64,000 nt of DNA from Sipunculus nudus (Eukaryota > Annelida > Sipuncula > Golfingiida > Sipunculidae): positions 16,453,839 to 16,517,838 of the forward strand of contig CM049316.1 in the NCBI GenBank assembly GCA_026874595.1, read 5' to 3'. The notes under the pieces are model-generated. The model worked only from the letters and a program-made list of their open reading frames with translations. It ran no database searches and was not told the DNA's origin. The position numbers were made by a program, and so were the translations under genes. Each line of letters opens with the position of its first letter. The stretch's first letter is position 1. Positions 30,401 through 57,961 of the stretch are shown here, piece by piece.

Positions 30401-33400
30401 GAATTGTCTTCAGTGATTCTAAAGCTACATATTGCTGATGTCTGAGTGATCATTTTATAAATTTGCAATATTGAATGTCACACAGAATATGCAGTGTCTC
30501 TGGTTTAGCCTTCTGTCAGACTCTAAAATGTGGAAAACTTCAGGCTCAAACAAATGTTTATAAATGAGATGGTACTGCATCATTTTATCTTGGACTTTTA
30601 ACAATTTATCAATCATTATGTTATCAATCATTGTATCGCCAGACATAGTCTGGAGATACTATGGTTTAGGCACGGTCCCGCCGCCGCCGCCGCCGCAGAG
30701 ATTTCTTTTGGACACAATAACTCAAAAAATATTTCACGGATCTTTACCAAACTTGGTATATGTATAGATATGGGTGAGAGGACGACGCCTATTTAAAATG
30801 AGGTCATGACCTCAACTAGGAGAGTGACCTTGACCTTGAATAGGTTCAATTTTGGGGAAAATCACACAAATTCTTAAATATCTCAAGAAAACTTGCATGG
30901 ATTGATCCCAAAATAAAGTTGATCAAAGATCATGGATAGGGTTGTCATGTTCCAGAAACTGGTGGCGCCACCTATTATTCTTTACTTGTTTTCATGCCAT
31001 TTAATATCCCCAAAATTGCTACTTGACAGTACTGTGAGCATTATAAGTCAAAAACTAATAGACAGATTTCTTTCATATTATGCAAATACATAGATATGGG
31101 TTATGGGATGATGTTTATATAAATTGGGGTCATGACCTTACCTATGAGAGTGGCCTTGACCTTGAATATTGCCATATATGGTGAAAATCACACAAATTCA
31201 TTTATTTCTCAATAAGGGATGCATGCATTGGTCCAAAAATCAACTTGACCCAAGATCTTGGATAGTAATGTCATGTACGGGAAACAGGTGGCGCCACCTG
31301 TTATTCTTTTACTTGTTTTCGTGGCGTTTAATACCCCATCATTGCCACTTAACAGTACATTTATAACCTGGGAGCATTATAAGTCAAAAACTAATGGACA
31401 GATTTTTTTCATATTATGCATATACATAGACATGGATTATGGGATGATGTATATATAAATTGGGGTCATGACCTTTCCTATTAGAGTGGCCTTGACCTTG
31501 AATATTGCCATATATGGTGAAAATTACACAAAATCATTAATATCTCAATAAGGGATGCATGCATTGGTCCAAAAATCAACATGTTCGAAGATCTTGGAAA
31601 GTATTGTCATGTACCGGAAACAGGTGGCGCCACCTGTTATTCTTTTACTTGTTTTGTGCTGTTTAATACCCCATCATTGCCATTTATCAGTACTGTGAGC
31701 ATTATAAGTCAAAAACTAATGGACAAATTTCTTTCATATTATGCATATACATGGATATGGGTTATAGGATAATGTTTATTTGAATAGGGGTCATGACCTT
31801 TCCAATGAGTGGCCTTGACCTTGAATATTGCCATATATGGTGAAAATCACACAAAATCATTAATTTCTCAATAAGGGATGCATGCATTGGTCCAAAAATC
31901 AACTTGACCCAAGATCTTGGATAGTAATGTCATGTACCGGAAACAGGTGGTGCCACCTGTTATTCTTTTACTTGTTTTCGTGGCGTTTAATACCCCATCA
32001 TTGCCACTTAACAGTACATTTATAACCTGTGAGCATTATAAGTCAAAAACTAATGAACAGATTTCTTTCATATTATGCATATACATAGACATGGGTTATG
32101 GGTAATGTATATATAAATTGGGGTCATGACCTTTCCTATTAGAGTGGCCTTGACCTTGAATATTGCCATATATGGTGAAAATTACACAAAATCATTAATA
32201 TCTCAATAAGGGATGCATGCATTGGTCCAAAAATCAACATGTTCGAAGATCTTGGAAAGTATTGTCATGTACCAGAAACAGGTGGCGCCACCTGTTATTC
32301 TTTTACTTGTTTTGTGCCGTTTAATACCCCATCATTGCCACTTAACAGTACTGTGAGCATTATAAGTCAAAAACTAATGGACAGATTTTGTTGCATATAC
32401 ATAGACATGGGTTAGGGGATGATGTATATTGAAATTTGGATCATGACCTTTTCTATGAGAATGACCTTTTCTATGAGTGTGGTCTGATATTAATTGTTGC
32501 TGAAGATGGGGGGCTTATTCTTAAAGGGGGGGGGGGATTAATTGTCTGGCGATACTATGGCACCTGCAGTGCCAAGAAATATCTAGTTGTATGATGTCTT
32601 TTTCATTGTCCCCACTTCATGGAACAGGGGACATTGATTTGGGGTTTTCTGTCTGTCCCTCTATTGTCCATATGTATTTTTTCCTTTCTATGCAATAACT
32701 TTCATAAATATTATCTGATTTCATCCAAATTTGGGTCAGTGATTGCTCTCATGCTTACCTTGGTTGAGTTTGGTTTTGGAGTGTCTGTCTTACAAGATAA
32801 TAATGAAATATGGATATTTAATTTTTGATATAGTGAATCATCACATTTTGTTTCACTAAACACCAACATATGTTGCTAGTGGTGGACATAAATTACTTGA
32901 AATAAGTGCGGTTACTGCCAGATGCTGTCATCTGATGAGCATGGTTAAAATTATTTGCACTTAGTCACCACAGACTTTCAATCATCCTGGACTTTAAGGC
33001 TGAAGCTGGGGACATTCCTTGAATTTACTTATTATGAGTGGCTGTGGTATCCATTTCTACCAAAATGTATGCAAAGTCTTTATTAAACTGAGCCTTCAAT
33101 ATTGATTTGTGTTGACAGAGCTTGTTACAAAAAGATTTTATGAAAAGCTGTGCTTTTATGTATTGTTTAATTCTCTCTCTTACTAATATCAAAAGCAACA
33201 GCAGTTTTATTTGTAGTAACATACCTAATGATTAGGGACTGATATTTCCTTTCTTGCAGGAGAGCTTGTTGATGTCTTGTGGTTGATACAGGAGGAAGTA
33301 GATCTTCAGGTACCAAGGTAGAAAAAAAAAACATTTTTCTGGTAATGTATTTTGTCTGTGATAGGTTATAGGTAATACATGAAGCATTTAAACATAGTGC

Positions 33401-39400: not shown

Positions 39401-42400
39401 GTAACAATTTTAAACATTAGGGATGCATAAAAAGCACTTAAAAATAAAAGCAGGGGGGCCCTATGGGGATGTTTAAGAGTGGCTGTAGTGCTTGTCCGAG
39501 TTGTAGATTTCCCATCTTGACACTGTATTTGACCCACATTTGCTGGGAATAGTTAAGGGCCTTAATCACAGTTGACGCATTGTGAATATTTGGTACCAAT
39601 TTCAGGGTTGGGGAAGGGGGGGGATTAGATATGAGTTATCTAAAAGATGAAAAAAGTTCAAACATATTTCTTACACAACACTATTCCTACAATAATCTTG
39701 GGCCATGTTGACCCACACATACATACCTTATTAGTAACATACAAGAGTCCACACAGAGACATCTGGCGGCAAACAACAACTGTGGTACCCAACCTTTTAA
39801 CAAGACTGCTGTCAGTTTAAAGGGACATAACCTGGAGTGATATTATGTGTATTTTTTCACATTATCAGGTCAGTTTTGCTTTATGCAAAATTTCCCAGCA
39901 AAACCATCCCAGCATATAGTCTCAGTATCTCCCATACGGCTGTTTAACACCGTGATATGGTCATGCGTGTGAGTAAACACAGTCCATGTGTTGCTGTTTA
40001 CCATAACAAGCGAGAAGTCTGACTTTGCTTATGCGCAACATATCCCAAACAAGAACTAGTCCATACATATACATAGAACTTCATGTCCACTGCTGGACAC
40101 ACATCATAATCCACCTTTATTTTACATTCTTGTACAAGAGTAAACCAACATTTCAGGGCAATATTTTGGTTGGTACAAATTTATTTAAAAGAGAAGGTGC
40201 TATTATTCGACTTAATTCAACATGCTTTATAGGTGATAAGGCCCCTTTAAGGCAGGTGTCTATTTCTTTAAAAAAATGTTATGATCTGGGCTCTAAATGA
40301 CACAGGGGATTTTTTAAGGCCTGGCATCTGATCAAGGAAATATGATAAGTACTCTGTGAACAATATTTGAACTTAAGATAATCATGCTTTCACTGACACT
40401 GCCTGATGAACTTTGATCCTGACCTTAGACCTTTTTTCAGTGTCAGGTCTGAACATGGATGTGGTAGATTTACTGAGCCACTTCAAGCGCGATGGTTCAG
40501 CAGCCAGAGCCCCACCCAAACCAGCACAGACAAAGGTGATGACATAGTCACGGCATCTCAGTATGACTTTATGGAATTGAAGTTGTTTTTTTTTAAATAG
40601 AGTAAGACAAATTAAGGCCAGATTGTATAATTTGTTGGCTTATAAACTTTATGTGCAGCCCTGAATGTAAAAGGATGGAAAATAATGATATAACTGTTCT
40701 TTGTTATTATCCTGCATGTAATTCATGAATGTTCATGAGCAAACTCTTGTACCTTTAAGTTGATAAGAATGTGCTTCCTTTCTGTAGACTTAAACCTTGT
40801 AACTGTTTTCTTCTTGTTCATAAAATATTGCTGTCATTACCTATACCCTATGTTTATTAATAGCTGCTAGGTTGTTCTGAAACCACTGTTGGATCTTTTC
40901 ATCTAACTGATATGTTCTTAAAGGAAAATAATTTAAAAGTGATCAATGAATTTTTTTCCAGTTTAAAGAAATTCAAGGTAAAGGTCCATGAACCAACAAA
41001 TTATAAATTCTACCTTTGGTCAAAACTAAATAATCATATGTGATATTATTATATAAGTACTACATAGAGAATGGTAACCACAAGTTATATGTTATGTTAC
41101 ATGAAATAATACTTCCCTGGGATAAACTGAATGTTTCACTGTACTTATGTGTATTGGTATTGATTACATTCTTGAACACTTACTTCATTGCTTTCATGTG
41201 GTTACAGCCCTCCACACGACGTAGTCCACTGCTGCCTAAGTTTGACAGCGGTGACGGGAAGCTTTCTGCTTGGCCCGAGTGTGTACATTACCAGTACCAT
41301 GGAATCTAGTGAGTTACAGTCTCTTTAAAAATCTTATACCAGTTTAGTTACTTTGAATATGGGACAGCACAAGCCTGTGTATGATAACCTTTCCCTTTCT
41401 TTTTTCCTTGCATCAGGACAAATGTGTTCTTGTATTGTTTCTGTGTTATGGAGATAACTTTGTGCAATATGGTATTTGAGGTCATGCTTTAAAAATAACA
41501 TACCCTCTTTAAGTATATTTATAAGATAAATAAATATTAAGTCGATCAGTGTTTTGTGCCATGTTACATTTCCTAAAATTCCTTTACTCATGTGAAACTG
41601 ATTCATTTTATGTTTAAACACATTTGGTTTAAAAAGTACACTGTAATATGAAGACATGAAGATATTTTACAAAATTCTTTATTGCAGCTACCACAGAGGA
41701 GTAAAAACTGAAAAATTTGAAAACTTCTGCAACAAATTAGCCACCAGACTGAGCCACATGGAAACATTATCCACCTGTGTTGGTAAGGCAAGACAGACAT
41801 TAACAAGACGAACCTCAAGCAGGTCTTCCTTAGTCAGTAGTGGACAAAACAGGCGACAAATAATTGAAAAAGACAGAAACAGCACTGTAAAAGACGTGAA
41901 ACTAGGTGGCAGGAAGCGGAAGCAACCAGACTCGGAAAATGACAGTTTTGAAAGTGTCCGAAGGAACAGTCTAGGTACCCTAGAACAAAACAGTCTGGAT
42001 ACTTCCAGAAGGAAAAGCCTGTCTGCTGTCAGGACAACCAGCTCAGGAAAGAGAGACAACCTAGTTGTGGGTAGGAGAGACAGTTTAGTTTTGGGTAGGA
42101 GAGATAGTTTGCCATCAGGTAGGAGAGACAGTATAGCATCAGGAAGGAGAGAGAGCTTGACATCAAGAAGAAGAGAGAGTTTGGGATTAGGAAGGAAAGA
42201 AAGCTTTGATTCAAACAGCAGAGACAGTTTTGATATGAGTAGAAGAGAGAGTTTGGACACAAGTGGTGGTACCAGTTTTGATTTAAGTAGGGATAGTTTT
42301 GGTTTTGGAAGGAGGGACAGCTTGGCTGAAAGTAGGAGAGAGAGTACTGAATCGAATCGGAGAGACAGTTTGGACACGTCAAGGAGAGAATCAACCAGTA

Positions 42401-45400
42401 ACCCAACACCTCCGGGTGAATCCACTCAAAGGTGAGATCACTTCAAATGTTGAAAATATGCCTCAAACAAAGCTTTATTTTTAGCCAACCTGTGAGCTTA
42501 TGCGATGGCGCAGCGTCGTCTGTCCATCGTCAGCCATCCGCTGTCCAGGGCTGGCTTTCTGCCATCCATGGCTGTAAGTCAGAAACCGTCGGAGCTAGCA
42601 GCTCCAAATTACATGTAAGAATTAGTCACATGTGAAACTTGGTGCCCTTGAGCTTATTATTGGGTATCTGCATTAATTTAGATTTTATAGAGAAAAAGCT
42701 TAAAAACCTTTAAATATTTTCTTCTCAGAAACTGTCCAGCCAAATTGTCCAATATTTCACCCTGGAACAATCTCAAGTTTGTTCGAATGGTTCCAGTTTG
42801 GAGATTTTTGGCAGAGTTACAGGAGGTTGAACTTTGTCATCTGTCCTAAAAAGCACACTAAACTTAAAATCTCAGAAGCAGCTAGAGCTATAATCACCAA
42901 ATTTTATACCAATGTTTGTCACATATGTCATATCTGATTTTGAGGTATTGGTGGTGCCAAATACATAGATGTGTTTTTTACAAGCGAATCTGTAATTTTA
43001 AACTCTTCTAGCTTATACACTGATTTATGATGAAACTGTTAAGCTGATTGGTTTAAACTTTACAAGAATTATTCTATGGTAGGGTTCTGCCACTTATATA
43101 AGAATAGATTGGGTAAATACAGTTTAAAAAAAACATTGTATTCAATTGAAAAAGGCTTTCTGTATTTGAAAACAGATTTGACAACGTGCTGAGTTTCAGC
43201 AGCCAAGTCAAGAGGTTACTCAGTACAAACAGGTGGGGTCCAGACATCACCATGGCAACTGACCTGGCTCGGGGGGGAGGTGTCTAGACAATGTTTAGAT
43301 GCTGAATTCCCAGATTATTGGAACTATATCTCTCAGATGTTTGAAAAAACTTGGTTTGCATTTTAAGTGAATTGGGTTTATCATCAGGTCACATGTGAAC
43401 TGCTGCCCCCTCATTTTTGGTTGACCTCTGACCTTTCCTCACTGCCCAGCGTCCATTTGTCGGTCCGTTGCCACACATAAACCCACATATCTTGCGAACC
43501 GTTTGATCGATCAGGCTAAAAATTTTGCACAAATGTAGCCCCTTGATAGCTTTATAACATACTCTAAAAATGGTGGTGCCACTTGCAACCATTTTTGCAC
43601 AGCGTCCATTTCTTCATCTGCCTTGGGATAATATCACTCATATCTCAGCAGTGGTTTGACTTATCCACCTGAAATTTTGCAGGTTTATACATCCTGGACA
43701 GCTTTCTCGATTTTATGACAGATGGCGCCACCTACATTCAGGTTTACTCTGCAGACATCCAAGTTCATATCTCGAGAACCGTTTGACCGATTGGGCCAAA
43801 ATTGTGCATGTGTATAGATCTCAAATAGCTCTTCATAATAGGCAAAACTGGTGGCGCCACCTGCAACCACTTTTGCACAGCGTCGATCTGTTCATCTGCC
43901 TTGGGATAAAATCACTCATATCTCAGAAGTGGTTAGATTTTTCCACCTGAAATTTAGCAGGTTTATACATCATGGACAGCTTTCTTGATTTATGACAGGT
44001 GGCACCACCTACATTCACGTTTACTGTGCAGACATCCAAGCTCATATCCCGGGAACCGTTTGACCGATTGGGCCAAAATTGTGCATGTGTATAGATCTCA
44101 CATAGCGCTTCATCATAGGCAGCACTGGTGTCGCCACCTGCAACCACTTTTGCACAGCGTCAATCTGTTCATCTGCCTTGGGATAAAATCACTCAAATCT
44201 CAGAAGTGGTTTGATTTATCCACCTGAAATTTTGCAGGTTTATACATCTTGGACAGCTTTCTTGATTTATGACAGGTGGCACCACCTACATTCACGTTTA
44301 CTGTGCAGACATCCAAGCTCATATCCCGGGAACCGTTTGACCGTTTGGGCCAAAATTGTGCATGTGTATAGATCTCACATAGCTCTTCATCATAGGCAAA
44401 ACTGGTGTCGCCACCTGCAACCACTTTTGCACAGCGTCCATCTGTTCATCTGCCTTGGGATAAAATCACTCATATCTCAGAAGTGGTTTGATTTATCCAC
44501 CTGAAATTTTGCATTTTTATACATCCTGGACAGCTTTCTTGATTTATGACAGGTGGCGCCACCTACATTCTCGTTTACTGTGCAGACATCCAAGCTCATA
44601 TCCCGGGAACTGTTTGACCGATTGGGCCAAAATTTTGCATGCGTTTAGATCTCACATAGCGCTTCATCATAGGCAGCACTGGTGTCCCCACCTGCAACCA
44701 CTTTTGCACAGCGTCCATCTGTTCATCTGCCTTGGGATAAAATCACTCATATCTCAGCAGTGGTTTGACTTATCCACCTGAAATTTTGCAGGTTTATACA
44801 TCCTGGACAGCTTTCTCGATTTTATGACAGGTGGCGCCACCTACATTCACGTTTACTGTGCAGACATCCAAGCTCATATCCCGGGAACCGTTTGACCGAT
44901 TGGGCCAAAATTGTGCATGCGTTTAGATCTCACATAGCGCTTCATCATAGGCAGCACTGGTGTCGCCACCTGCAACCACTTTTGCACAGCGTCCATCTGT
45001 TCATCTGCCTTGGGATAAAATCACTCATATCTCAGAAGTGGTTTGATTTATCCACCTGAAATTTTGCAGGTTTATACATCTTGGACAGCTTTCTTGATTT
45101 ATGACAGATGGCACCACCTACATTCATGTTTACTGTGCAGACATCCAAGCTCATGTCTCGGAAACCGTTTGACCAATTGGACCAAAATTTTGCATGCGTT
45201 TAGATCTCACCTAGCTCTTCATCATAGGCAACACTGGTGTCGCCACCTGCAACCACTTTTGCACAGCATCCATCTGTTCATCTGCCTTGGGATAAAATCA
45301 CTCATATCTCAGCAGTGGTTTGACTTATCCACCTGAAATTTTGCAGGTTTATACATCCTGGACAGCTTTCTCGATTTTATGACAGGTGGCGCCACCAACA

Positions 45401-48400
45401 TTCACGTTTACTCTGCAGACATCCAAGCTCATATCTCGGGAACTGTTTGACCGATTGGGCCAAAATTGTGCATGTTGTAGATCTCACATAGCTCTTCATC
45501 ATAGGCAAAACCGATGGTGCCTCATGCAACCATTAATGCACAGCACCCATCTGTTCCTCTGCCTTGGGATAAAATCACTCATGTCTCAGCAGTGGTTTAA
45601 CTTATCCACCTGAAATTTTGCAGGTTTATACATCCTGGACAGCTTTATCGATTTTATGACAGGTGGCGCCACCTACATTCACGTTTACTCTGCAGACATC
45701 CAAGCTCTTATCTCGGGAACCATTTGACTGATTGGGCCAAAATTTTGATGTGTATAGATCTCACATAGCTCTTCATCATAGGCAAAACCGGTGGTGCCAC
45801 CTGCAACCACTTATGCACAGCATCCATCTGTTCATCTGCCTTGGGATAAAATCACTCATATCTCAGCAGTGGTTTGACTGGACAATTTTCTTGATTTTAT
45901 GACAGGTGGCACCACCTACATTCATGTTTATGCTGCAGACATCCATGCTAATATGCAACACACCTCACTCTATTCCCCTTGCCACTTAATTCATGCCTCA
46001 CTTCACCCGTCCCACTCTGATTTCTGCAGATACACATAGTCGCTTGTCGAATACCAGTATTCTAGTTTTAAAATGTCCTAGTCTGAAACTTGCAGGTCCA
46101 AAATGTCCATTTTGCTGAAATCATAATGACTAAGGTAGATATGCAGCCTTTTATTTGTATGAAGGACTAATGCTAATCATGATGCGCTAAATGCTTTGAT
46201 TGGCTTGTGATTATGAAACACTTGAATATTTGAATATGTTTAAAAGGTTACAGTTCATGATGGGACTAAATTGCCATAGAACAGTGGAATATGATGTTTG
46301 GCCTCAGATTTTAACTGCGAAAAATTGATACGGTCCCTTTTTTCACCTATATGGAAGTTTGTTGCATAAACAGCACGTATATTAGTCTGAACGCATCCCA
46401 GCCTTTGATCCTGCAAAAGGGGTTTCCTACAGCAGTACAGGCATCCCTTATTGGTTGAACAGATGATTACAACTGCTCTTTTAATTTTACAAGAGTAAGA
46501 TACCCTTATCAAGAAAGTTTCCCTGAACAAACTTTTTACACAGTTATGTAGTCACAGGTCAGTTTCTCACACCTTTATGACATGTGAGGTGTTTTGTTTA
46601 AGCCTTGGCCCTGAAATAATTACAGCCAATGGGGTCAGTGCTCCTTACACGCTTAGGCTCAGCGGTCTGTGACTGTTCAAACATGCGATATCCGGACAGA
46701 GAATTAGTAGACCTAATAAATAGTTAAATCAACTGTTTATGAAATAATTTGGTCCCTACAGTTTATGGTCTTATTAGCTCAGCTGACTTTAAGTCATCTG
46801 AGCTATAGTTGTGGTCCATTGTCTGTCGTCTGTCTGTCCGTCCGTCCGTCCTCCCCTCTGTCTGTCCGGATGTCCGTCCGTAAGACTGGCACGTTTCGAC
46901 ACCATTGGACCTACGAATCTGAAATTGGCCATACAGTTAGATGTCCCAAAAATCTCCTACCATGCCGAAAATTGGGTCAATAGGACTTTGTTCCTTCGAG
47001 ATATTAAGGAAAAACCTCAATTTTATTAGAAATCTATTTTCACACTTCAGGACTGCCATTTGATATTTTCAAGGACAGGTAAATTTCATGTGTTTGGCAC
47101 TCTGTATTGAATAAGGTAGTAATTAACCATAAAATAAGAATAATCATATTCTGTAGACATAACGTGTCATTTATAATTTAGAGGGAATCTGTCAAGAGGT
47201 AGTCTATCAAGATTTTACATTATGTCCTTTAAGGCTGTTGTGGGGTTTAAAAAGGAGACTTTCCGTTTGTGCCCTGTCGCAATCTCATTTTTGATCTATC
47301 CCTCCATCTGTCTGTTCATATGTCAGACCCATTTTTATTGCGCATTATCTCAAGAAATGTTCAACATATTGCTGTGAACATTTTACAGCAGGTCAGGGGA
47401 TATATGCTGCTGCATTTCAGACCCATCAGAAAAACAATATGGCTGCTAGACAATGATCTTCTTATTCCTTCACACACATTTTCTCATTGCCAAGTGATTT
47501 CCATGGCAATTTTACGTGTGATTTATACCTTTTAGAGAATGTTGGCTGTCAAATTTCAGATCTGCAGGAATACATTTTGGCCACTAGACGGCAATCTTGC
47601 ACCAATCTATAAATTCCTTTTTGTGAAAGTATCTTAAGAACCTTTTAAGCACTTGCCTTGAAAATTTTACCAAGGATAGACGCTCATGAGAGGATATCTG
47701 CTACTGAAAGCAGACCCATCAGATCCAGTATCGCTGCAAGGCTGCCATTTTTATTAGCCCATCTATGATGGGATGTAATGTGGTATATATACCCACAATC
47801 CATCTGTCTGTCCATCTGTCCATTAACTTTGAGTGTCACTGCGATAACTTACCAGGGCTTGGTGGATTTTCACGAAACTCACCATTACCACTAACCATGC
47901 AATAGATTATCTCATACAAGTTTGAAAACAGGCAAAAATCAAAACTGAGTGGTTGCCTTCTTATTTGCTGTGGCTTCAAATTCGCGATCCTCACGGTCAA
48001 TCTGTGACCATGAAATTGAAAACCACACTGTTTTGAATGCATACAAGGCCATATGCATTAATTTCAGAACCTGCCGAACGGTGGCGACAGTTGTGATTAA
48101 TCTTCAACACATAGTGAAATCCATCAAGCCTTGTGTGTAAACTTTAAAAGTGATTCAGAGAGATTAATGGGGCCCATTTATAATAGTATTGGTTGGCTTA
48201 GGCCTAGATGCGAAAACTGTGACCCTTTGCAGGGATGTGCTCACACCAGGCGGCGCACCCAGCAGGTTTTGCTGCCGCCCAGCACATGACTGGAAAGTGT
48301 CAATGTGACGTATGCTTGGCAGTAATATTAAAAAATTAAAAAACATCTATTTCACAGTGTTTTACCTGTATTACTGTCAGTGACCCCTGTCTGATATATC

Positions 48401-51400
48401 TGTTGTGTATTTGTGCCAAGAGAGATGACATCCAGTGGCGCTTTAAATGAATAATTAATAAAAGGTACTCTTTCACATTGTTCTGTATTTTGTTAATGTT
48501 AGTGAATTAAATTTGCTTCTTAAAGTAGTAAACATAGCTGCTACGGTAGCGCCACCTTTTATTTGTATGAAGGACTAATGCTAATCATGATGCGCTAAAT
48601 GCTTTGATTGGCTTGTGATTATGAAACACTTGAATATTTGAATATGTTTAAAAGGTTACAGTTCATGATGGGACTAAATTGCCATAGAACAGTGGAATAT
48701 GATGTTTGGCCTCAGATTTTAACTGCGAAAAATTGATAGGGTCCCTTTTTTCACCTATATGGAAGTTTGTTGCATAAACAGCACGTATATTAGTCTGAAC
48801 GCATCCCAGCCTTTGATCCTGCAAAAGGGGTTTCCTACAGCAGTACAGGCATCCCTTATTGGTTGAACAGATGATTACAACTGCTCTTTTAATTTTACAA
48901 GAGTAAGATACCCTTATCAAGAAAGTTTCCCTGAACAAACTTTTTACACAGTTATGTAGTCACAGGTCAGTTTCTCACACCTTTATGACATGTGAGGTGT
49001 TTTGTTTAAGCCTTGGCCCTGAAATAATTACAGCCAATGGGGTCAGTGCTCCTTACACGCTTAGGCTCAGCGGTCTGTGACTGTTCAAACATGCGATATC
49101 CGGACAGAGAATTAGTAGACCTAATAAATAGTTAAATCAACTGTTTATGAAATAATTTGGTCCCTACAGTTTATGGTCTTATTAGCTCAGCTGACTTTAA
49201 GTCATCTGAGCTATAGTTGTGGTCCATTGTCTGTCGTCTGTCTGTCCGTCCGTCCGTCCTCCCCTCTGTCTGTCCGGATGTCCGTCCGTAAGACTGGCAC
49301 GTTTCGACACCATTGGACCTACGAATCTGAAATTGGCCATACAGTTAGATGTCCCAAAAATCTCCTACCATGCCGAAAATTGGGTCAATAGGACTTTGTT
49401 CCTTCGAGATATTAAGGAAAAACCTCAATTTTATTAGAAATCTATTTTCACACTTCAGGACTGCCTAATATCAAAACCACTCATCTGGTTTTCTTCATAT
49501 TTACCATAAATATTCCTCTATATAGTTCCTATGTACATGCCAGAAATTAAGTCAGTATTATTTAATTTAAAAAAGTTATGGGCCCAAACATAATGGACAC
49601 TGTAAAAAAATCAGGAAAGATATTTGGTCACTTAAGACCAAAAGTGTTAATGGTAGGGACTTTTTTTCAGTAATACAACTTCAATTAATCAAAATTTAAT
49701 TTTATACAAAAAATTAGATCAAAATCTGTTAATTTTGTTTAAATATTGGCAAAAATATAAAATTGGTACCTTAAATTTTGCCCAAGTTTGACCATGGCAC
49801 GTTTTTTTCCTGTAAGTACTGTGGATTTAATTTTCACAGCATGTTTTTGTTAGCATTTTGTCTGTTAATACAAAAAATTTGAAATCAGTTGATCAAAAAC
49901 TGTAGATTTTATTCAAGTTTTCAATGTAACTCTATATCCCCTTGACACTCAATCCATGCCCCCCCTCAACCGTCCTTCTCTGATTTTGGCGGATACACGT
50001 AGTCGCTTGTCGACTACCCGTATTCTAGTTTAAAAAAGTTATTGGGCCCAAACACAATGCATTTTGTAAATAATCAGGAAAGAAATTTGATCACTTAACA
50101 CAAAACTTGTTAAAGCTAAGCACTTTTTTTTCAGTAATATTACTTTTATTAATCAAAATTAAATTGTATACCTAAAATTAGATCAAAATCTTTTAAATTT
50201 TTTAAAATATTAGAAAAAAATAAAAAATTCTTACCTTGCCCAACTTTGACCATGGCACGTTTTTTACCTGTAACTGCTGTGGATTTAATTTTCTAAGCTT
50301 GTTTTGTTAGCATTTCAACTGTTAACACCAAAAATTTGAAACCAGTGGATCAAAAACTGTAGATTTCATTCAAGTTTTCAAGCACCATGTCACATCAAGT
50401 TTACATCAAGCTAGTGTTATGCAGTTTGCTAGAGCTCAGCTCCCCAGCTTCAGCTCTAAGTTCCTTAAATTTAGCATACAGTTAGATGTCTCCAAAATTC
50501 CCTACCATGCCAAGAATTTTATCACTAGGACTTAATTCCTTTGAAATATTAATGAAAAACTTCATTTTTCCATTAAAAACCCATTGTTACACTGTAAGAC
50601 TGCCTAATATCAAAACCACTGATCTGACTTTGATCATATATAATATACATATTTTTCTATACATTCGCTATGCACATGCCAGAAATGATGTCAGTGTTGC
50701 GTAATTGTTTTAAGTTGAGGGCCCAAAAATAATGCACTTTTTAAAAAAACAAGAAATATATTTACTCCTTTAACAAGAGGATTGCTGAAGCTAGAGATTT
50801 TATGTCAGGGATGTAACATTATTTAATCAAGGTTCAATTGAATACCAAAAATTAGTTCTGAATTTTTCAAATTTTATAAGTTATTAGTATAAATATAAAA
50901 TTAGTACCTTAAATTTTGCCCAACTTTGACCATGGCACGTTTGTTTCCTGAGAGCACTGTTGATATAATTTTCATATCATGCACACATAAGGATTTCATC
51001 TTTGTAGTTTAGAAAGCTGAAAGAAATTGGCCAAATATTGTAGCTTTTATTAATGTTTATATGAGACCATGTCAGACCCAGGCTTAATCCAGCCCCTCTT
51101 CAGTCACCTGTATGTTGACCTTGTTGACCTTTCATCAGATTATGCATGCTTGAGCGAAGCATACACTGGGGCAGCCAGGCAGCTAATGCCCAGCCACAGT
51201 TGATCCAGGTGTCCAACCCAAGTCATCTAGTAGTTGTTTTGAAAAACAACATAACAATAAACAATAAATTAATAATTTTGTGTTGGTTTTTTATAACAAA
51301 TTAAAGAAAAATTATAGAAAAGGAATTTGTAAGTTGATGAGTAACAGAAAATTAACTTGCAGTTACTGATGATGTAAGAATCTTATATGGATGGATAGAA

Positions 51401-54400
51401 TGTCAATCTCAATGTTATTCCAAATAACACCATGCAGTCACCTATGGTATTTTTCAGTGAAATTTTAATGATAAAAAAATAAATCATGTTATTCATTACT
51501 AATCATTAGGGATCATATGAAGGAAATTAATGATAGACAATGATACAGTTGATAATATTAATCTAGATTCCTACTGTGTCTAGTGTGTAGATTGATGTAA
51601 AAGTAGTCCAAAGTGAATATATTACATTTATTTTTTTTAATATAAATAAAAGCCGTAAAACCAGGTACTTATGATCATTATTCAAATTTGTGAATTTTGT
51701 ATATTCTGGATTCTCATCATCATTGTTTGGCTAAAACTGAATAAATACCAGACATGGTGCAAATACTTTTACAAATGTATTTGAATACGAGTATGAATCA
51801 TTATAAAATTTCTTGCATAAGAATGGGAATTCAAGTAAAAATGAAAGTATTTGAATACCAGTGCAAATACTTTCAAAATGTTTTCATGAATGCATTCATG
51901 AATATATTCTATAATATTATTTTAATAATCATTTCAGTTTTATTTTATAAAAAAAAATCATGATTCTCTTATTTTTTTTAATAAAAATTATATTTGGCAC
52001 AATATTTGTTATTAAATTTTAATAAATAGTTAAACACTTATATTATATGTGCTGCTTATAAGTTATATGGCCAAGTCAAAATCTGTGTGACAATAGCACT
52101 CCATTTGTCAATAAAATAAATGAAATCAATCCTCTTCCCTGTCTCCAAAGATACTATCAAAATCATAATAAGCTAAACACCAACAACTCATAATAAAGCT
52201 TTCATTTATTACCACACAAAACCAGCATGTGCCTCATTTCCAAATCATATTTTTTTATCATATATAACAGCTGAGCGCCGTGACCCATGGGTCCCTAGTA
52301 TTTGATAAATAAAATATACTACTAGAGAAATGATAGAGCATGAAAATGGAACCCTGTTAATCTTTTAAAAAATATTTTTTTTTAAATAAAGGCAACCACA
52401 GCATATAAAGAGGTCAGAGGTGGCAAGGGTACTTTATTTATTTGCTGCAATAACTTTACAGGAATATGAAGGATTTTTGATAAACGCAACAGAAATATTA
52501 ACCAATATTATCTTGCCTAAGTCCAATTCCCAGAAAACCCATGCATATTTAATGAGGTCTAAGGCCATGATGACTTACCAAAAATCTGATGGATATTGGT
52601 GAAACTTTTATAGATATTAACCAATACAGTTTCTCACCGAAATTTAATGAGGTCAGAGGTCAAAAGACATTAGATAGGTGTATTATGCATGTTTGTGGTG
52701 CTCTTGTTAGGAACTGGACTTCGTGGGGCCTTTAGGGTCTGAATCATTTCTACTTGTCAGTTACAATAAATGCTTTTGACTATGATAAAAGTATGGTTGG
52801 ACATGGGAAATGAATTGTTTAGAACATTGTTCATGATCAACTTTCCTTTTCCCCCAGAATGACACGTGGTGTGGTGACGTCACTCAGAGAACAGAACAAA
52901 CAGATTGAGGAGGAGGCCGGTAAAGTCAGCGCCGGGCAGGGAGGTAGTGAAGGTGGCGTGGCTGAATCAGAGAGGAGGGAGAAACGATCTGAGAGACACA
53001 AGAGGGTCAGTCATGTTACAGATATCATAGATATAATCTCATATTTTTGTTAATAATGCCTTGTGTACAGTTTGAGCTCATCCATCTTCTACCCATGACC
53101 GCATCATTCTGCTAATGCCTAATTAAGTTCCCATATTATAGTAGTAGGGACTGGTTGTAAAATTACTTTGACTATTATAAAAAAAGAAAAATGACTGATG
53201 TTCGATTTTTAATTGATTTATTTATGTACATGCTATATTTCGATAAAATATGCTGTAAAGATCAGTATGAGTGTAAAAATAAATCACACAGTTACTTTAT
53301 TTCAACTTTTCACCAGCCCATCTGACAACCAGATGATTTCTATTATCTAGATGTAACATTTGATCTTGGTTACTAGCTATTTCCTATACTTTGCTGAATT
53401 GAGCACACAAGCACTCCCAATACTGGGATGCTTTAATTGACCATCTGGCACATCACAGTGAATTCCTGATGCCTTTTCATGGTTTAGTAGGTGCAGATGT
53501 ATTAGAATGCCAATTCAAATAACACATTTGCATGCAGATACTATTAATGTAGAAATTGTACAAGCTGAGCCCATTTTCTGGCTTAAATAAAAAATTGTTG
53601 TCATAAAAGTACTGGAGTTCATGTAATTTGTTTGGAAATTATAGGTCTCAGTAAAAGCTTAGCATATATACCAAGTGCACCACCACATTTCAGGGAAAAA
53701 AAATGAAAACAATGTGTTTCTGGATTTAAGTGTTTTCTAAATTGAGTTCCTGACATCAAACATAAGCCCCCACCTGTATTTTAGTACCAGTACTTGCAAA
53801 TTACATTTTTCATACCATAGAAGTTGCTTGAGATTGTTCAACGTGAGCTGGAGGAGAGAGGCATCACCAAGTCAAGTGAAATGTTCAAGCCGGCTGCTAA
53901 AAGGTTGTATGACCTCACCAAAAGCTTTGTTAAGGTCAGTATGCTCCTTAAAGTTAATTATTTCACTTAAGTAACCCATTTCAGTGTTAGCAATGTAATT
54001 ATTACCTGTTTACTATATAAAAGCTAATTACCTTATAATGAGTAACACGTGTATATAGTTAATTTACTTTCTTGGATCTTTCCTATATCTGTCAGAAATG
54101 CTTAGCTGTATTTTATGCAAACTGTTCAAATTAATTTTACAAAAACTTTCATTTATATCACGTAAATAAGTATGACTATTATCATTTGAACCAAGTTTGT
54201 GTTCACAAAAGTTTTCATGCTTGTTTTGTCCAAATGCCTATCAGAACAATACTCTAATACTCTTTAGGTATTAATATTCTTGATCCAGTATATTGTAACC
54301 TGTAGTTGTTAAGAATTTCCGAAAGGTGTCACTAGTGTACATGTACACAAAACAAGACTGCTTGATGGACCATTTATGGATGTATATGAGATCTTTGCTT

Positions 54401-57400
54401 ACTGTAGTATGTTTTGTTTGTGTGTGTGCATCTCCAAATTTTATTTCAAGTGTGGAAGTGAAGGATATTGATATTACTTAATGGGACTTATATGACATGA
54501 TTACAAGGACTTTGTATTATAATATGTCTTGGGAATGAAAACAATACACTTTTGATTCAAGAGCAGAACAACTCTATAGTTTGCTGTTAGCATTGATGGA
54601 ACAGGGTCTGTCAGTTACAAAGAGCACAAGTTCACAGGGTACAGAGGGTCTTCCAGGTCATGAATATACAAGTCTGTGTGCTTGTGTTTGTTTGAGAGAG
54701 GTCAGGGAGGGGGAATAGTTTGATGTTTTTTTTTAATATTTTAATATCTGTTTCATTTACCTGCTTCAGGATCTGAAGACATCAAGAAATCTCAGACAGG
54801 TGATGGAACAGGTGGCCAAAAGTAATGCACAGCAGGTATGTACAGATAGTCAAAAGTAATGCATAGCAGGTATGTACAGATGGCCAAAAGTAATGTACAA
54901 CAGGTATGTACAGATGGTCATATATAATGCACAGCAGGTATGTACAGATGACCAAAAGTAATGTACAACAGGTTAGCACAGGGGGTCAAAAGTAATGCAC
55001 AGCAGGTATGTACAGATAGTCAAAAGTAATGCATAGCAGGTATGTACAGATGGCAAAAAGTAATGTACAACAGGTATGTACAGATGGTCATATATAATGC
55101 ACAGCAGGTATGTACAGATGACTAAAAGTAATGTACAACAGGTTAGCACAAGGGGTTAAAAGTAATGCACAGCAGGTATGTAAAGATGGTCAAAAGTAAT
55201 GCATAGCAGGTATGTACAGATGGTCAAAAGTAATGCAAAGCAGGTATGTAAAGATGGTCAAAAGTAATGCATAGCAGGTATGTACAGATGGTCAAAAGTA
55301 ATGCACAGCAGGTATGTAAAGATGGTCAAAAGTAATGCACAGCAGGTATGTAACGATGGTCAAAAGTAATGCATAGCAGGTATGTACAGATGGTCAAAAG
55401 TAATGCACAGCAGGTATGTAAAGATGGTCAAAAGTAATGCATAGCAGGTATGTAAAGATGGTCAAAAGTAATGCATAGCAGGTATGTACAGATGGTCAAA
55501 AGTAATGCATAGCAGGTATGTACAGATGGTCAAAAGTAATGCACAGCAGGTATGTAAAGAGGGTCAAAAGTAATGCACAGCAGGTATGTACAGAGGGTCA
55601 AAAGTAATGCACAACAGGTATGTACAGATGGCCAAAAGTAATGCATAGCAGGTATGTACAGAGGGTCGAAAGTAATGCACAGCAGATATGTAAAGAGGGT
55701 CAAAAGTAATGCACAGCAGGTATGTACAGATGGTCAAAAGTAATGCAAAGCAGGTATGTATAGATGGTCAAAAGTAATTCATAGCAGGTATGTATAGATG
55801 GTCAAAAGTAATGCACAGCAGGTATGTAAAGAGGGTCAAAAGTAATGCACAGCAGGTATGTACAGAGGGTCAAAAGTAATGCACAGCAGGTATGTACAGA
55901 TGGTCAAAAGTAATGCATAGCAGGTATGTAAAGATGGTCAAAAGTAATGCACAGCAGGTATGTACAGAGGGTTGAAAGTAATGCACAGCAGATATGTAAA
56001 GAGGGTCAAAAGTAATGCACAGCAGGTATGTACAGATGGTCAAAAGTAATGCAAAGCAGGTATGTATAGATGGTCAAAAGTAATTCATAGCAGGTATGTA
56101 TAGATAATCAAAAGTAATGCACAGCAGGTATGTACAGAGGGTCGAAAGTAATGCACAGCAGGTATGTACAGAGGGTCGAAAGTAATGCACAGCAGGTATG
56201 TAAAGAGGGTCAAAAGTAATGCACAGCAGGTATGTATAGATGGTCAAAAGTAATGCAGAGGGTCAAAAGTAATGCACAGCAGGTATGTACAGATGGTCAA
56301 AAGTAATGCAAAGCAGGTATGTATAGATGGTCAAAAGTAATTCATAGCAGGTATGTATAGATGGTCAAAAGTAATGCACAGCAGGTATGTACAGAGGGTC
56401 GAAAGTAATGCACAGCAGGTATGTACAGAGGGTCGAAAGTAATGCACAGCAGGTATGTAAAGAGGGTCAAAAGTAATGCACAGCAGGTATGTATAGATGG
56501 TCAAAAGTAATGCATAGCAGGTATGTAAAGAGGGTCAAAAGTAATGCACAGCAGGTATGTACAGAGGGTCGAAAGTAATGCACAGCAGGTATGTAAAGAG
56601 GGTCAAAAGTAATGCACAGCAGGTATGTATAGATGGTCAAAAGTAATTCATAGCAGGTATGTATAGATGGTCAAAAGTAATTCATAACAGGTATGTACAG
56701 AGGGTCGAAAGTAATGCACAGCAGGTATGTACAGATGGTCAAAAGTAATGCATAACAGGTATGTATAGATGGTCAAAAGTAATGCATAGCAGGTATGTAC
56801 AGAGGGTCGAAAGTAATGCACAGCAGGTATGTATAGATGATCAAAAGCAATGCACAGCCGGTATATACAGATGGTCAAAAGCAATGAAAAACAGATATAC
56901 TAGTACAGATGGTGAAAAGTAATGTACAACAGGTATACATTGCAAGTACAGATGGTCAAAAGTAATGCATAGCAGGTATGTATAGATGGCCAAAAGTAAT
57001 GCACAGCAGGTATGTACAGAGGGTCGAAAGTAATGCATAGCAGGCATGTACAGACAGTCAAAAGTAATGCAATGCAGGTATGTATAGATGGTGGAAAGTA
57101 ATGTACAGCATATACATACAGATTGTCAAAAGCAATGCACAGCAGGTATGTATAGATGGTCAAAAGCAATGTAAAACAGGTATACAATTACAGATGGTCA
57201 AGAGTTCTGTACAACAGGTATGTACAGATGGTCTAAAGTAATGCACAGCAGGTATGTAAAGATGTTCATAAGTAATGAACAACAGGTATGTACAAATGGT
57301 CCAAAGAAATGTAAAATAGGTATACAAGTACAGATGGTCATAAGTAATGTACAACAGGTATAAACAGATGGTCAAAAGTAATGCATAGGAGGTATGTACA

Positions 57401-57961
57401 GATGGTCAAAAGTAATGCATAGGAGGTATGTACAGATGGTCAAAAGTAATGCATAGGAGGTATGTACAGATGGTCAAAAGTAATGCACAACAGGTATGTA
57501 CAGAGGGTCATAAGTAATGTACAACAGGTAGGTACAGTAGTACACAGCAGTTATGTTCAGGTGATGAGATGCAATATGCAGCAGGTAATGCATTGCAGGT
57601 ATGTACAAGAACTTGTTAAAATGTCATCATGTATATTCTTTTAATATTTTATTTAATTTTTCACCCATTTCATTGTAAAGTTGTTAATATATTGCACCTG
57701 CAAATCTTTCAGTAAAAGGCCAGTGGCTGTTGGGGAATCTGTGCCATTCTTATCCCAGAAAACACATGAGCGCTTTGTCATTCTTGGCTTCAGGCAACTC
57801 TTTTAGTCTTTTTAAGTATTGAATATGTGAACATTTGTCTGAACAATCATGAAAATTCTTGATATCTTAGAAATGGATTTATCTTTGCCTGACTTGATTA
57901 TATGTTTTTCTTGCAGGTGATTGACTTTGAGAAGATACAACTAGGAATAATGGGTGACTAG
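23618..57961 (+). CDS. MTBP: MTBP (MDM2-binding protein), Treslin partner in origin firing; 20 exons
   Basis: Spliced gene recognised by family patterns. The N-terminal part has HAVNFTKRFIS (vertebrate NVYHLLKRSIS). Next comes WHRARVTLAGCGPI...VLWRGPLKL (vertebrate ITIAG...LWRGKI). The middle region has YGPGFQE (YGPALEF) and VHYQYHGIYY (VCHYHGIEY). The C-terminal domain has KRLYDLTKSFVKDLKTSRNL and then NAQQVIDFE. Exons (junction phases agree): 23618-23717, 28269-28405, 28724-28806, 29290-29351, 33260-33317, 34118-34331, 34911-35099, 35610-35734, 36343-36397, 37324-37432, 37783-38088, 38396-38551, 38797-38952, 40441-40535, 41208-41308, 41688-42431, 52858-53005, 53821-53934, 54770-54835, 57917-57961. 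Total 3,063 nt, 1,020 aa. Known family role: with Treslin/TICRR it helps load CDC45 onto MCM in the nucleus; first named for MDM2 binding. Exon 1 is the least certain. Confidence 0.88.
24748..26847 (+). mobile_element. Helentron/HINE-like non-autonomous element, copy A
   Basis: The 5' end is a hairpin (AGCTCAG ... TGACT/AGTCA ... CTGAGCT, 24,748-24,776), followed by a GTCC/TCCG run. The 3' end at 26,818-26,847 has TCAGCTGAG and the palindrome GACCCATGGGTC. CTCAGCTGA at the 5' end is the inverse of TCAGCTGAG at the 3' end. Inside, a block at about 24,862-25,340 recurs at about 25,550-25,920. No transposase frame. The Helentron assignment rests on end structure only. It lies in MTBP intron 1. 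Confidence 0.6.
27366..27402. repeat. (TA)n microsatellite
   Basis: Pure TA run in MTBP intron 1. Confidence 0.9.
28269..28405 (+). CDS. MTBP: MTBP exon 2
   Basis: Acceptor TTGTGCAG and donor CAG|GTACAG. Encodes SWTEHAVNFTKRFISSNKRC and ends CSSYCLLPQ. This matches the N-terminal NVYHLLKRSIS region of vertebrate MTBP. Confidence 0.85.
28724..28806 (+). CDS. MTBP: MTBP exon 3
   Basis: Acceptor TTATAG, donor AG|GTAGGT. Encodes EDETQPAWITTSNDTSISDL and on to HSEP; acidic linker followed by a helix corresponding to the vertebrate SLADLYEEA region. Confidence 0.8.
29290..29351 (+). CDS. MTBP: MTBP exon 4
   Basis: Acceptor AATACAG, donor G|GTGAGT. Encodes REDDNSLVVQLHKLCDGLPN S, matching the vertebrate ENLHQLSDKLP helix. 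Confidence 0.85.
29680..30200. repeat. Interspersed repeat fragment in MTBP intron 4
   Basis: Opens with TATGCCCATCTACGAGCGGA and TATACCCACCGTCCATTCG. Related sequence occurs at about 47,750-47,920 and 52,390-52,710 (shared phrases on plaque-like AACTTTACAGG, GGTCAGAGGTCA, and TTGTGGTGCTCTTGT). No terminal structure resolved. Confidence 0.5.
30625..32590 (+). repeat. Array of about 330-bp units with 20-bp palindrome, in intron 4
   Basis: The array is flanked by similar phrases, GTCTGGAGATACTATGG at 30,650 and GTCTGGCGATACTATGG near 32,547, which suggests one element with internal tandem units. A (CCG)n run follows the left end. Units carry AACAGGTGGCGCCACCTGTT (31,283, 31,619 and 32,277; one-base variant near 31,942), CCATATATGG (31,172, 31,508, 31,831, 32,166) and CCTTGACCTTGA. 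Spacings are 323-336 bp. Open frames in the units are not conserved as protein. Confidence 0.8.
32598..33025 (+). mobile_element. Possible short interspersed element
   Basis: The left end has CCCCACTTCATGGAACAGGGG and GGGGACATT, followed by TCTGTCTGTCC. GGGGACATT recurs at the right end (about 33,008). The arrangement resembles the other repeat types here, but boundaries are tentative. Confidence 0.35.
33260..33317 (+). CDS. MTBP: MTBP exon 5
   Basis: Acceptor TTCTTGCAG. Encodes GELVDVLWLIQEEVDLQVP. The first GT after CAG (33,310) is out of phase with exon 6; the GTAGAA donor at 33,318 restores the frame and is preferred. Confidence 0.8.
34118..34331 (+). CDS. MTBP: MTBP exon 6
   Basis: Acceptor TTTTTTCAG, strong donor GTAAGT. 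Encodes SDDILLYGVLKRLLGWHRAR, VTLAGCGPI and SQVLWRGPLKLVTAS, one of the clearest matches to the MTBP N-terminal family (ITIAG ... LWRG). Confidence 0.9.
34911..35099 (+). CDS. MTBP: MTBP exon 7, S-P-x-K cluster
   Basis: Acceptor ATTTCAG, donor GTGAGA. Encodes NLNTTLLPGYQLQYEEKEP and then, from about protein residue 249, five S-P-x-K motifs (SPRK, SPRK, SPVK, SPVK, SPLK) in a basic loop. These are CDK-type consensus sites; the vertebrate counterpart at this place has a basic linker without such a cluster. Confidence 0.88.
35610..35734 (+). CDS. MTBP: MTBP exon 8
   Basis: Acceptor TTCTTCCAG. Encodes RYGPGFQETVTLATELEMLD and on to GTTLQLYP; matches vertebrate YYGPALEFVQMIKL. The donor is a non-ideal GTTAAG, chosen because the next exon requires phase 2 and because the frame meets a stop soon after. 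Confidence 0.8.
36343..36397 (+). CDS. MTBP: MTBP exon 9
   Basis: Acceptor AATGTCAG, donor ACA|GTGAGT. Encodes GKERSKSSAILEHLQDDT, matching vertebrate NSTKQNSVLLLEQIS. Small (55 nt) but phase-consistent. Confidence 0.8.
37324..37432 (+). CDS. MTBP: MTBP exon 10
   Basis: Acceptor CCTTTCAG, donor A|GTAAGT. Encodes ICYLVRLRYGTKVKTEGTFT and on to DCDASIMS; matches vertebrate SSYYLLLQGNGNRRCKATLI. Confidence 0.85.
37703..37795 (+). repeat. Local duplication of the exon 11 acceptor region
   Basis: ATCATGTTAATTATTTACCT (37,703) recurs 48 bp later as ATCATGTTAATTGTTTACCT (37,751). Each copy ends in GAGCCTGCAGTTA, so the CCTGCAG acceptor exists twice. Confidence 0.75.
37783..38088 (+). CDS. MTBP: MTBP exon 11
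   Basis: Encodes VTYSIQGHMGFHHFVITQSR, LYPPSRINGKVAHVMALN and FLDALPFFPGTDF; matches the vertebrate QINGSFALNL ... LPHFSGE region. Two acceptors fit the phase: TTTATAG (start 37,783) and CCTGCAG (start 37,792), differing by three codons. Donor G|GTGAGT. A partial duplicate of the acceptor region lies 48 bp upstream. Confidence 0.85.
38396..38551 (+). CDS. MTBP: MTBP exon 12
   Basis: Acceptor GTTTCAG, donor G|GTATGT. Encodes EWKKSTERSEVITVNEIQHV followed by a helix to NPLPKNFIS; matches vertebrate KRRKLAKQPETVSVAELKSL. Confidence 0.88.
38797..38952 (+). CDS. MTBP: MTBP exon 13
   Basis: Acceptor ATTTTAG, donor G|GTAACT. Encodes ECELDGAHSIEKQCLVIKET and EKAAETARREKLCKQ, a charged helix, then FSPPRSNT. 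Corresponds to the vertebrate ERHVLQNLETFEKTKQK region. Confidence 0.85.
40441..40535 (+). CDS. MTBP: MTBP exon 14
   Basis: Acceptor CTTTTTTCAG. Encodes LNMDVVDLLSHFKRDGSAA and RAPPKPAQTK; matches vertebrate LLDAKELLKYFTSDGLP. A second acceptor six bases on (start 40,447) is also in phase and would drop two residues. Donor AAG|GTGATG. Confidence 0.82.
41208..41308 (+). CDS. MTBP: MTBP exon 15
   Basis: Acceptor GTTACAG, donor TA|GTGAGT. Encodes PSTRRSPLLPKFDSGDGKLS and AWPECVHYQYHGIY; matches vertebrate EKASVCHYHGIEYC. Confidence 0.9.
41688..42431 (+). CDS. MTBP: MTBP exon 16, long disordered R-R-x-S repeat
   Basis: Acceptor TTTATTGCAG, donor AG|GTGAGA; 744 nt open throughout. Begins YHRGVKTEKFENFCNKLATR (matches the vertebrate RDGGFSELQSRLIRYE region), then a basic linker (RKRKQPDSENDSF). 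From about residue 740 to 890 there are some 19 copies of an 8-residue unit, consensus RR[DE]SLxxG/S. Twelve units carry R-R-x-S. The unit repeats every 24 nt at DNA level. Low-complexity and probably disordered; basophilic-kinase or 14-3-3 sites are inferred. Confidence 0.9.
42479..46075 (+). mobile_element. Composite element carrying a 277-bp tandem array, in intron 16
   Basis: Left part begins TAGCCAACCTGTGAGC and runs through a GTCGTCTGTCC stretch. The right end has GTCGCTTGTCGAATACCAGT followed by ATTCTAGTTTTAAAA. The same right end (TAGTCGCTTGTCGACTACC) occurs at about 50,000-50,030. The interior is largely a tandem array. Element boundaries are inferred. Confidence 0.45.
43400..45960 (+). 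repeat. Satellite-like array, about 277-bp unit, about 9 copies
   Basis: The anchor CCACCTGAAATTT recurs near 43,665, 43,943, 44,220, 44,498, 44,775, 45,053, 45,328 and 45,607. Each unit has two GCCACC sites, typically GGTGGCGCCACC and GGTGTCGCCACC. The roughly 97-codon frame that repeats in each unit is a by-product of the 277-bp period, not a gene. The first and last units are diverged or deleted. Confidence 0.9.
46147..47057 (+). repeat. Near-identical 911-bp direct repeat, copy 1
   Basis: Matches 48,555-49,465 at a constant offset of 2,408 bp, with only one clear substitution noticed (about 46,331). Contains a Helentron-like 5' hairpin at 46,776-46,804. Similarity stops at CTTCAGGACTGCC, where this copy continues into unrelated sequence. 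Confidence 0.9.
47058..48554. other. Spacer between the 911-bp repeats
   Basis: Holds repeat fragments (CTGTCTGTTC at about 47,300; CCATCTGTCTGTCCATCTGTCC at about 47,800) and no gene. Confidence 0.5.
48555..49465 (+). repeat. Near-identical 911-bp direct repeat, copy 2
   Basis: Partner of 46,147-47,057. This copy runs on into a normal Helentron-like body, so it probably holds the original junction and copy 1 is the derived one. Confidence 0.9.
49184..52298 (+). mobile_element. Helentron/HINE-like element, copy C
   Basis: The 5' hairpin is at 49,184-49,212, with a TCCG run after it. The 3' terminus at 52,268-52,298 is CAGCTGAGCGCCG, then GACCCATGGGTC and CCTAG. The end CTAG after a palindrome fits Helitron-type 3' ends. 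The body repeats itself in part (blocks from about 49,465, 50,030 and 50,460) and contains a second element end near 50,000. Confidence 0.55.
52858..53005 (+). CDS. MTBP: MTBP exon 17
   Basis: Acceptor TTTTCCCCCAG, donor AGG|GTCAGT. Encodes RMTRGVVTSLREQNKQIEEE and ESERREKRSERHKR, the start of the conserved C-terminal domain (vertebrate QIKESRSQKH). Confidence 0.85.
53821..53934 (+). CDS. MTBP: MTBP exon 18
   Basis: Acceptor ATACCATAG, donor AAG|GTCAGT. Encodes KLLEIVQRELEERGITKSSE and MFKPAAKRLYDLTKSFVK, a strong match to the MTBP C-terminal domain. Confidence 0.92.
54770..54835 (+). CDS. MTBP: MTBP exon 19
   Basis: Acceptor CTGCTTCAG, donor CAG|GTATGT. Encodes DLKTSRNLRQVMEQVAKSNA followed by QQ; DLKTSR is the family hallmark. 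The last 28 nt of this exon plus the GTATGT donor are the unit of the tandem array that fills the next intron. Confidence 0.93.
54808..57605 (+). repeat. 34-bp minisatellite made from the exon 19 donor junction, about 80 copies
   Basis: The unit is ACAGATGGTCAAAAGTAATG followed by CACAGCAG and GTATGT. The first 28 nt equal the end of MTBP exon 19 (ACAGGTGGCCAAAAGTAATG then CACAGCAG) and the last 6 are the intron's GTATGT. Unit 1 spans the real exon-intron junction (54,808-54,841). A five-unit (170-bp) higher-order block repeats at 54,841 and 55,011. Units from about 57,050 on are more diverged. The stretch fills most of intron 19. Low-complexity frames on the minus strand across it are not genes. 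Confidence 0.95.
57917..57961 (+). CDS. MTBP: MTBP exon 20 (last coding exon)
   Basis: Acceptor TTTTTCTTGCAG. Encodes VIDFEKIQLGIMGD and TAG. Joined to exon 19 it gives NAQQVIDFE, matching vertebrate NAVQVIDW. Confidence 0.92.
   Translation: MIDFEKIQLGIMGD

Follow-up and report, generated by a model that had tools for sequence, protein, structure and literature searches.

The last intron of the MTBP coding region is largely filled by a 34-bp minisatellite (54,836-57,604) whose unit is a copy of the exon-intron junction immediately upstream, and 63 of its 81 units keep an uninterrupted CAG|GTATGT that is identical to the real 5' splice site. Splicing from any of these 63 later donors would lead to one and the same truncated protein ending. 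I consider it most probable (about 0.72) that the array is a private minisatellite which grew by slippage, is of the same kind as the minisatellite of human IFI6 and larger, and is mostly tolerated since the first donor wins by position.

Most studies of donor choice between equal sites rely on engineered duplicates. The array offers a natural case with dozens of identical cutting signals, in which 64 donors are identical over 9 bases and sit in 34-nt surroundings that are nearly the same. Because these donors are so alike, and because the C-terminal part of MTBP sits at a single place in the assembly, the effect of position on donor choice should be readable almost alone.

The MTBP exons and the array

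Four C-terminal coding exons were joined, all on the forward strand: the third before last (52,858-53,005, donor AGG|GTCAGT, whole-genome match at C11:16506697-16506846), an exon of 38 codons (53,821-53,934, donor AAG|GTCAGT, also matched in the whole-genome search), the 66-nt penultimate exon reading DLKTSRNLRQVMEQVAKSNAQQ (54,770-54,835, acceptor TTCAG, donor CAG|GTATGT, likewise matched), and the last exon reading VIDFEKIQLGIMGD-stop (57,917-57,961, acceptor TTTTTCTTGCAG). The 3' end of the penultimate exon is ...ACAGGTGGCCAAAAGTAATGCACAGCAG, followed by the donor GTATGT. Together they scored 75.8 bits against the Pfam profile MTBP_C (PF14920), for which the cut-off is 28.4, with 95 residues aligned to 95 profile positions (163-257) up to the last position of the profile, which falls two residues past the junction at 54,835. 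The score was 70.4 bits without the last exon and 60.5 bits when the residues encoded by the unit were removed as well. Within the penultimate exon lie two additional CAG|GT sites, at 54,800 and 54,812, whose phase matches that of the real donor. Neither was accepted as the exon end, as the score then dropped from 75.8 to 58.6 or 62.6 bits. These profile scores bear out the first-pass annotation in placing the exon end at 54,835, and, judged by the profile match, this end and its coding sequence are old.

Of the two profiles expected farther upstream in a gene of the Sld7/MTBP family, MTBP_mid reached 25 bits, exactly its cut-off of 25, in one upstream open frame only, and MTBP_N reached 20.5 bits, below its cut-off of 30.1; PF14919 had no match in the whole genome and likewise none in 14 controls, which makes that absence uninformative. 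Searching the 1.43-Gb assembly with the joined C-terminal protein at E 0.001 returned matches at three exons, all of them of this gene, and no second locus; such a search cannot pick up the last exon because of its shortness. One PDB search for relatives of MTBP gave three chains at E 0.97, a level expected by chance, and another gave one designed helical repeat protein.

The MTBP region holds several other repeats. A 24-bp array (42,051-42,206) lies inside an open frame (41,647-42,435), reads as GRRDSL-type repeats and had no Pfam match; it is probably a serine-rich coding repeat of MTBP, and the R-R-x-S within it resembles a basophilic-kinase motif. Further tandem arrays occupy 43,566-45,879 (277 bp × 8.3, 93% matches) and 30,790-32,468 (336 bp × 5.1, 86% matches), and a 911-bp direct duplication (46,147-47,057 and 48,555-49,465, 2,408 bp apart) is 99.89% identical with a single mismatch, and is either very recent or a duplication made in assembly.

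The last intron of the coding region (54,836-57,916) is 3,081 nt long, and 2,769 nt of it (90%) are array. Tandem Repeats Finder covered 54,808-57,537 with a number of overlapping entries whose period is 34 bp or a multiple of it, while wrap-around alignment to the 34-bp consensus divided 54,808-57,604 into 82 units, namely exonic unit 1 and 81 intronic units, with an 83rd row that is a 2-base remnant. The founder copy (54,808-54,841) consists of the last 28 nt of the penultimate exon plus GTATGT and differs from the array consensus at 2 of 34 positions, and units 2-82 follow at 54,842-57,604. The first-pass description of about 80 tandem copies of this very segment, most of which keep the authentic donor, therefore stands. 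The donor string CAGGTATGT is found 64 times in the array region, as the real donor and the 63 later ones, with a spacing of 34 nt in 52 of 63 cases; in the rest of the 64-kb window, by which I mean the whole stretch of DNA analysed, it is found once on the forward strand and not at all on the reverse strand. The 81 units comprise 48 distinct types with higher-order structure, including a 170-bp duplication (54,842-55,181) in which units 7-11 repeat the variant pattern of units 2-6 with a few differences. Intact donors are present in 8/10 of units 2-11, 46/49 of units 12-60, and 9/22 of units 61-82, which form the diverged distal part of the array (56,833-57,604).

Three side observations concern the unit itself. 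Position 23 is T rather than C in 24 of the 82 rows that follow the exon copy (the 2-base remnant row counted), which mostly creates CATAGCAG and places UAG immediately before the donor, a stop if read in the register of the exon. This UAG is a candidate splicing silencer of the hnRNP A1-like type. On the minus strand, many open frames of 50-95 codons cross successive units between 54,782 and 57,405, most likely as a by-product of unit composition. No Rfam family matched the window at the gathering threshold.

Origin and growth of the array

The array is private to this place in the genome. A search for a 28-base core of the unit that tolerated up to 3 mismatches gave at least 66 matches in the 1.43-Gb assembly, on one strand and always within this array, the exonic copy included; no other locus was found under these settings, in which counts may be lower bounds, and the reversed pattern used as a control had no match in the assembly. 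A dispersed satellite that happened to land here was rejected on this result.

The direction of growth was read from the coding sequence. Putting the array consensus in place of the exon end changes two residues (VA to MV) and lowers the PF14920 score from 75.8 to 72.4 bits. The exon residues fit MTBP_C better, and the array was for this reason rejected as the source of the exon end. Since the exon end is old coding sequence by its PF14920 match, the exon predates the array and gave rise to it, which is the direction that had been proposed at first sight. Among the 77 indel-free units, which include the exon copy (5 of 82 units were left out for indels in the coding stretch), 32 have a stop in the register of the exon. 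The exon copy is free of such stops, so that it alone seems to be held by coding need.

ACA flanks the founder segment at both sides (GGA|ACAG and GTATGT|ACAAG), and such a short direct repeat fits slippage. Homogeneous in its middle, the array is more diverged towards both ends and most of all at the distal one: divergence of the unit bodies is 0.128 in units 2-11, 0.072 in units 12-60, and 0.131 in units 61-82. Minisatellites that have expanded in situ through slippage and unequal exchange usually look like this, with a homogenised middle flanked by older ends; because units 2-11 are nearly as diverged as the distal units, growth would not have run simply outward from the exon. Under the favoured explanation, the 34-bp segment across the donor junction of the penultimate exon would have been duplicated in tandem and in place, and replication slippage together with unequal exchange would have expanded it to a minisatellite of 2.8 kb that takes up nine tenths of the intron, while the exon copy would have been kept fixed by its role in encoding the conserved end of the MTBP C-terminal domain. 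The array shows that an exon junction can seed a minisatellite.

What the copies could contribute to splicing was assessed from their acceptors and their folding. The array contains 328 AGs, and the 20 nt preceding them are never more than 50% pyrimidine, compared with 60-80% at four real acceptors (for two of these four, the window was placed one base off). The ideas that the array makes new exons or supports recursive splicing were rejected on the grounds that no good acceptor can be recognised in the sequence; without one, the copies would make no new exons or introns and only extra downstream donors. RNA structure that hides donors was also rejected, as the fold of the exon and the first part of the array, the only portion folded, was ordinary (z = 0.18).

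Consequences of later donors and the choice of the first

Every one of the 63 later CAG|GTATGT donors leads to the ending ...NAQQVCTDSQK-stop, in which the TAA (54,857-54,859 in the first extension) closes the tail VCTDSQK, exactly the tail that had been predicted. Because this stop sits in the first extension, the choice of isoform is binary, between donor 1 and any other. The first-pass idea that the cell must choose the first of about 80 equal donors is right about near-equal donors, for which the evidence is given below, and has to be corrected to a choice between two endings. Under the vertebrate rule, a transcript is expected to decay only if its stop precedes the final junction by more than 50-55 nt. 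The stop-to-junction distance is 10, 44, 78, 146, and 180 nt for later donors one to five and increases further for the rest, which leaves 61 of 63 at 78 nt or more. By that rule, decay may follow from these 61, and the first-pass expectation of decay is doubtful for the nearest two, which fall inside the usual no-decay distance and are the donors where leakage is likeliest.

Loss of the last coding exon, which the first-pass annotation had named, turns out to cost little of the domain: the exon contributes 14 residues, all but the first two of which lie beyond the MTBP_C profile, and the protein with the alternative ending retains 73.5 bits against PF14920, compared with 75.8 for the normal ending. 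It lacks 13 of the last 14 residues (V is common to both endings) and gains six others. The MTBP C-terminal domain is required for full function, and its deletion leaves ~50% of replication in HeLa cells, according to a review (PMC9219753); losing only the tail could be milder.

Donor strength was taken as the energy of pairing to the U1 5' end, computed as a ViennaRNA duplex. Out of 309 GTs in the array, 30 paired more strongly than the real donor and 35 equally, the real donor itself included; of the 3,404 GTs that the window has outside the array, 11 reached its energy. The donors are therefore near-equal by this measure, and use of the first one must rest on position or on neighbouring exon signals. 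Exon length (66, 100, 134, and 168 nt by the first few donors) does not set these donors apart; what does is how near each lies to the unique part of the exon and how early it is transcribed. The first donor adjoins the exon, emerges earliest in transcription and gives a short exon, and would for these reasons be used in most transcripts; some leakage to donors 2-4 may occur, as reported for the human IFI6 minisatellite, and leakage to any later CAG|GTATGT would give the one truncated ending. Use of the first donor is a prediction, not a given; where donors are duplicated, splicing can prefer the downstream site. With equal use of every donor, ~1 of 64 transcripts would be normal, so that survival of the animal suggests either a strong positional rule or a harmless alternative ending.

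Conservation of the donors gave no clear sign of constraint. On a neighbour-joining tree of the units (exon copy included, units 43 and 44 dropped for gaps), parsimony changes averaged 2.33 per donor position versus 2.84 elsewhere (permutation p = 0.28; p = 0.33 without the exon copy), and the donor window ranked 15th of 34 circular windows. Within units 12-60, 1/9 donor positions and 11/25 other positions were variable (hypergeometric P = 0.083, permutation p = 0.065), and units 61-82 alone gave a permutation p of 0.55. Raw divergence in units 12-60 (2/435 donor bases versus 87/1,216 others) yields a Fisher p of 6e-10, a value that overstates the difference because array copies share ancestry and their bases are not independent. 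The donors are thus not clearly better conserved than the rest of the unit, though a weak constraint may act on them.

These results bear directly on readings in which the array has a function. If it tuned the output of MTBP, some transcripts would use later donors and acquire the VCTDSQK ending, and those spliced from the third later donor or beyond would carry a stop far enough from the junction for decay, with copy number as the dial. MTBP is essential for replication in human cells (PMC9219753), so its level could matter, and the array would supply the same stop from 63/63 later donors, at least 78 nt away for 61 of them. Tuning is nevertheless unlikely, given donors that are not evidently better preserved than the rest of the unit and a nearest pair, at 10 and 44 nt, that is too close for the usual rule. 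That the array is a splicing device, in which 63 identical U1 sites feed one alternative ending and copy number sets how often the first donor loses and thereby the amount or form of MTBP, is quite unlikely. Alternatively, U1 snRNP bound to later copies might strengthen recognition of the exon and its first donor while these copies remain unspliced. There are 63 strong U1 sites beginning 34 nt past the real donor. In PAH intron 11, exon definition is helped by U1 binding downstream of the natural donor (PMC5933811), and an engineered intron-bound U1 corrects exon skipping (PMC4822034). The real donor, however, is already strong by pairing energy, with few equals in the window outside the array, and hardly needs such help; as the donors are also not clearly conserved beyond the rest of the unit, this role is very unlikely.

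The copy number of arrays is often mis-assembled, and the 911-bp, 99.9% identical duplication lies only 5-9 kb upstream, which raises the question of whether the array itself or its copy number is an assembly artefact. The assembly, however, comprises 153 contigs for 1.43 Gb, as would be expected from long reads, and 48 distinct unit types with higher-order structure are unlike a looped assembly, making an artefact highly improbable. The density of U1 sites could also suggest that the array absorbs U1 snRNP, as the first-pass annotation had proposed, or protects the transcript from early polyadenylation. U1 snRNP is very abundant in the cell, and a single intron of a single gene is small against it; a sponge is unlikely, and the proposal was not borne out by the tree-based tests, in which donor positions were not significantly more conserved. 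The intron contains neither AATAAA nor ATTAAA in its 3,081 nt, so there is little to shield, and the two roles together carry next to no probability. A private minisatellite that is mainly tolerated rather than selected would account for the array with the first donor preferred by position.

Comparison with known donor repeats

The minisatellite of human IFI6 (6-16, G1P3) provides several splice donor sites (Turri, Cuin and Porter 1995, NAR 23:1854), and two of its downstream repeat units serve as donors and give three mRNA species (PMC4526556). The first-pass statement that no such case had been described is wrong in kind on this account. The IFI6 unit is reportedly 12 bp long and present in ~26 copies at an exon-intron boundary, with variants that differ by whole codons. 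In both genes, the units of a minisatellite are splice donors, with donor use predicted from the sequence in the present case; the tandem unit of 34 bp × 82, the exon's own donor included, has the unit size (roughly 10-100 bp), the many copies and the full donor of a donor-providing minisatellite. The MTBP unit differs in that 34 bp is not a multiple of 3, in its 81 intronic units, and in the one truncated ending that follows from every later CAG|GTATGT. By analogy, the MTBP array would be of the same kind as IFI6 and differ from it in unit length, copy number, effect on the reading frame, and gene. Among the matches listed, the literature had no published account of the MTBP array locus and no donor arrays other than those compared here.

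Two further systems share part of this arrangement. In the potato RdRp gene (PMC4974935), tandem duplication over an intron-exon boundary likewise copied splice signals, and it produced a new intron with its acceptor, whereas the MTBP array lengthened an old intron and no copy has a recognisable acceptor; the working acceptor that goes with intron gain by tandem duplication would be missing, judging by the array's AGs and their low pyrimidine content. Neighbouring 5' splice sites also compete in DOK7 intron 4, where the outcome is set by SRSF1 binding, by distance and position, and by donor strength (PMC5585400). DOK7 intron 4 presents two unlike donors, while the MTBP array presents dozens of identical donors in near-identical surroundings.
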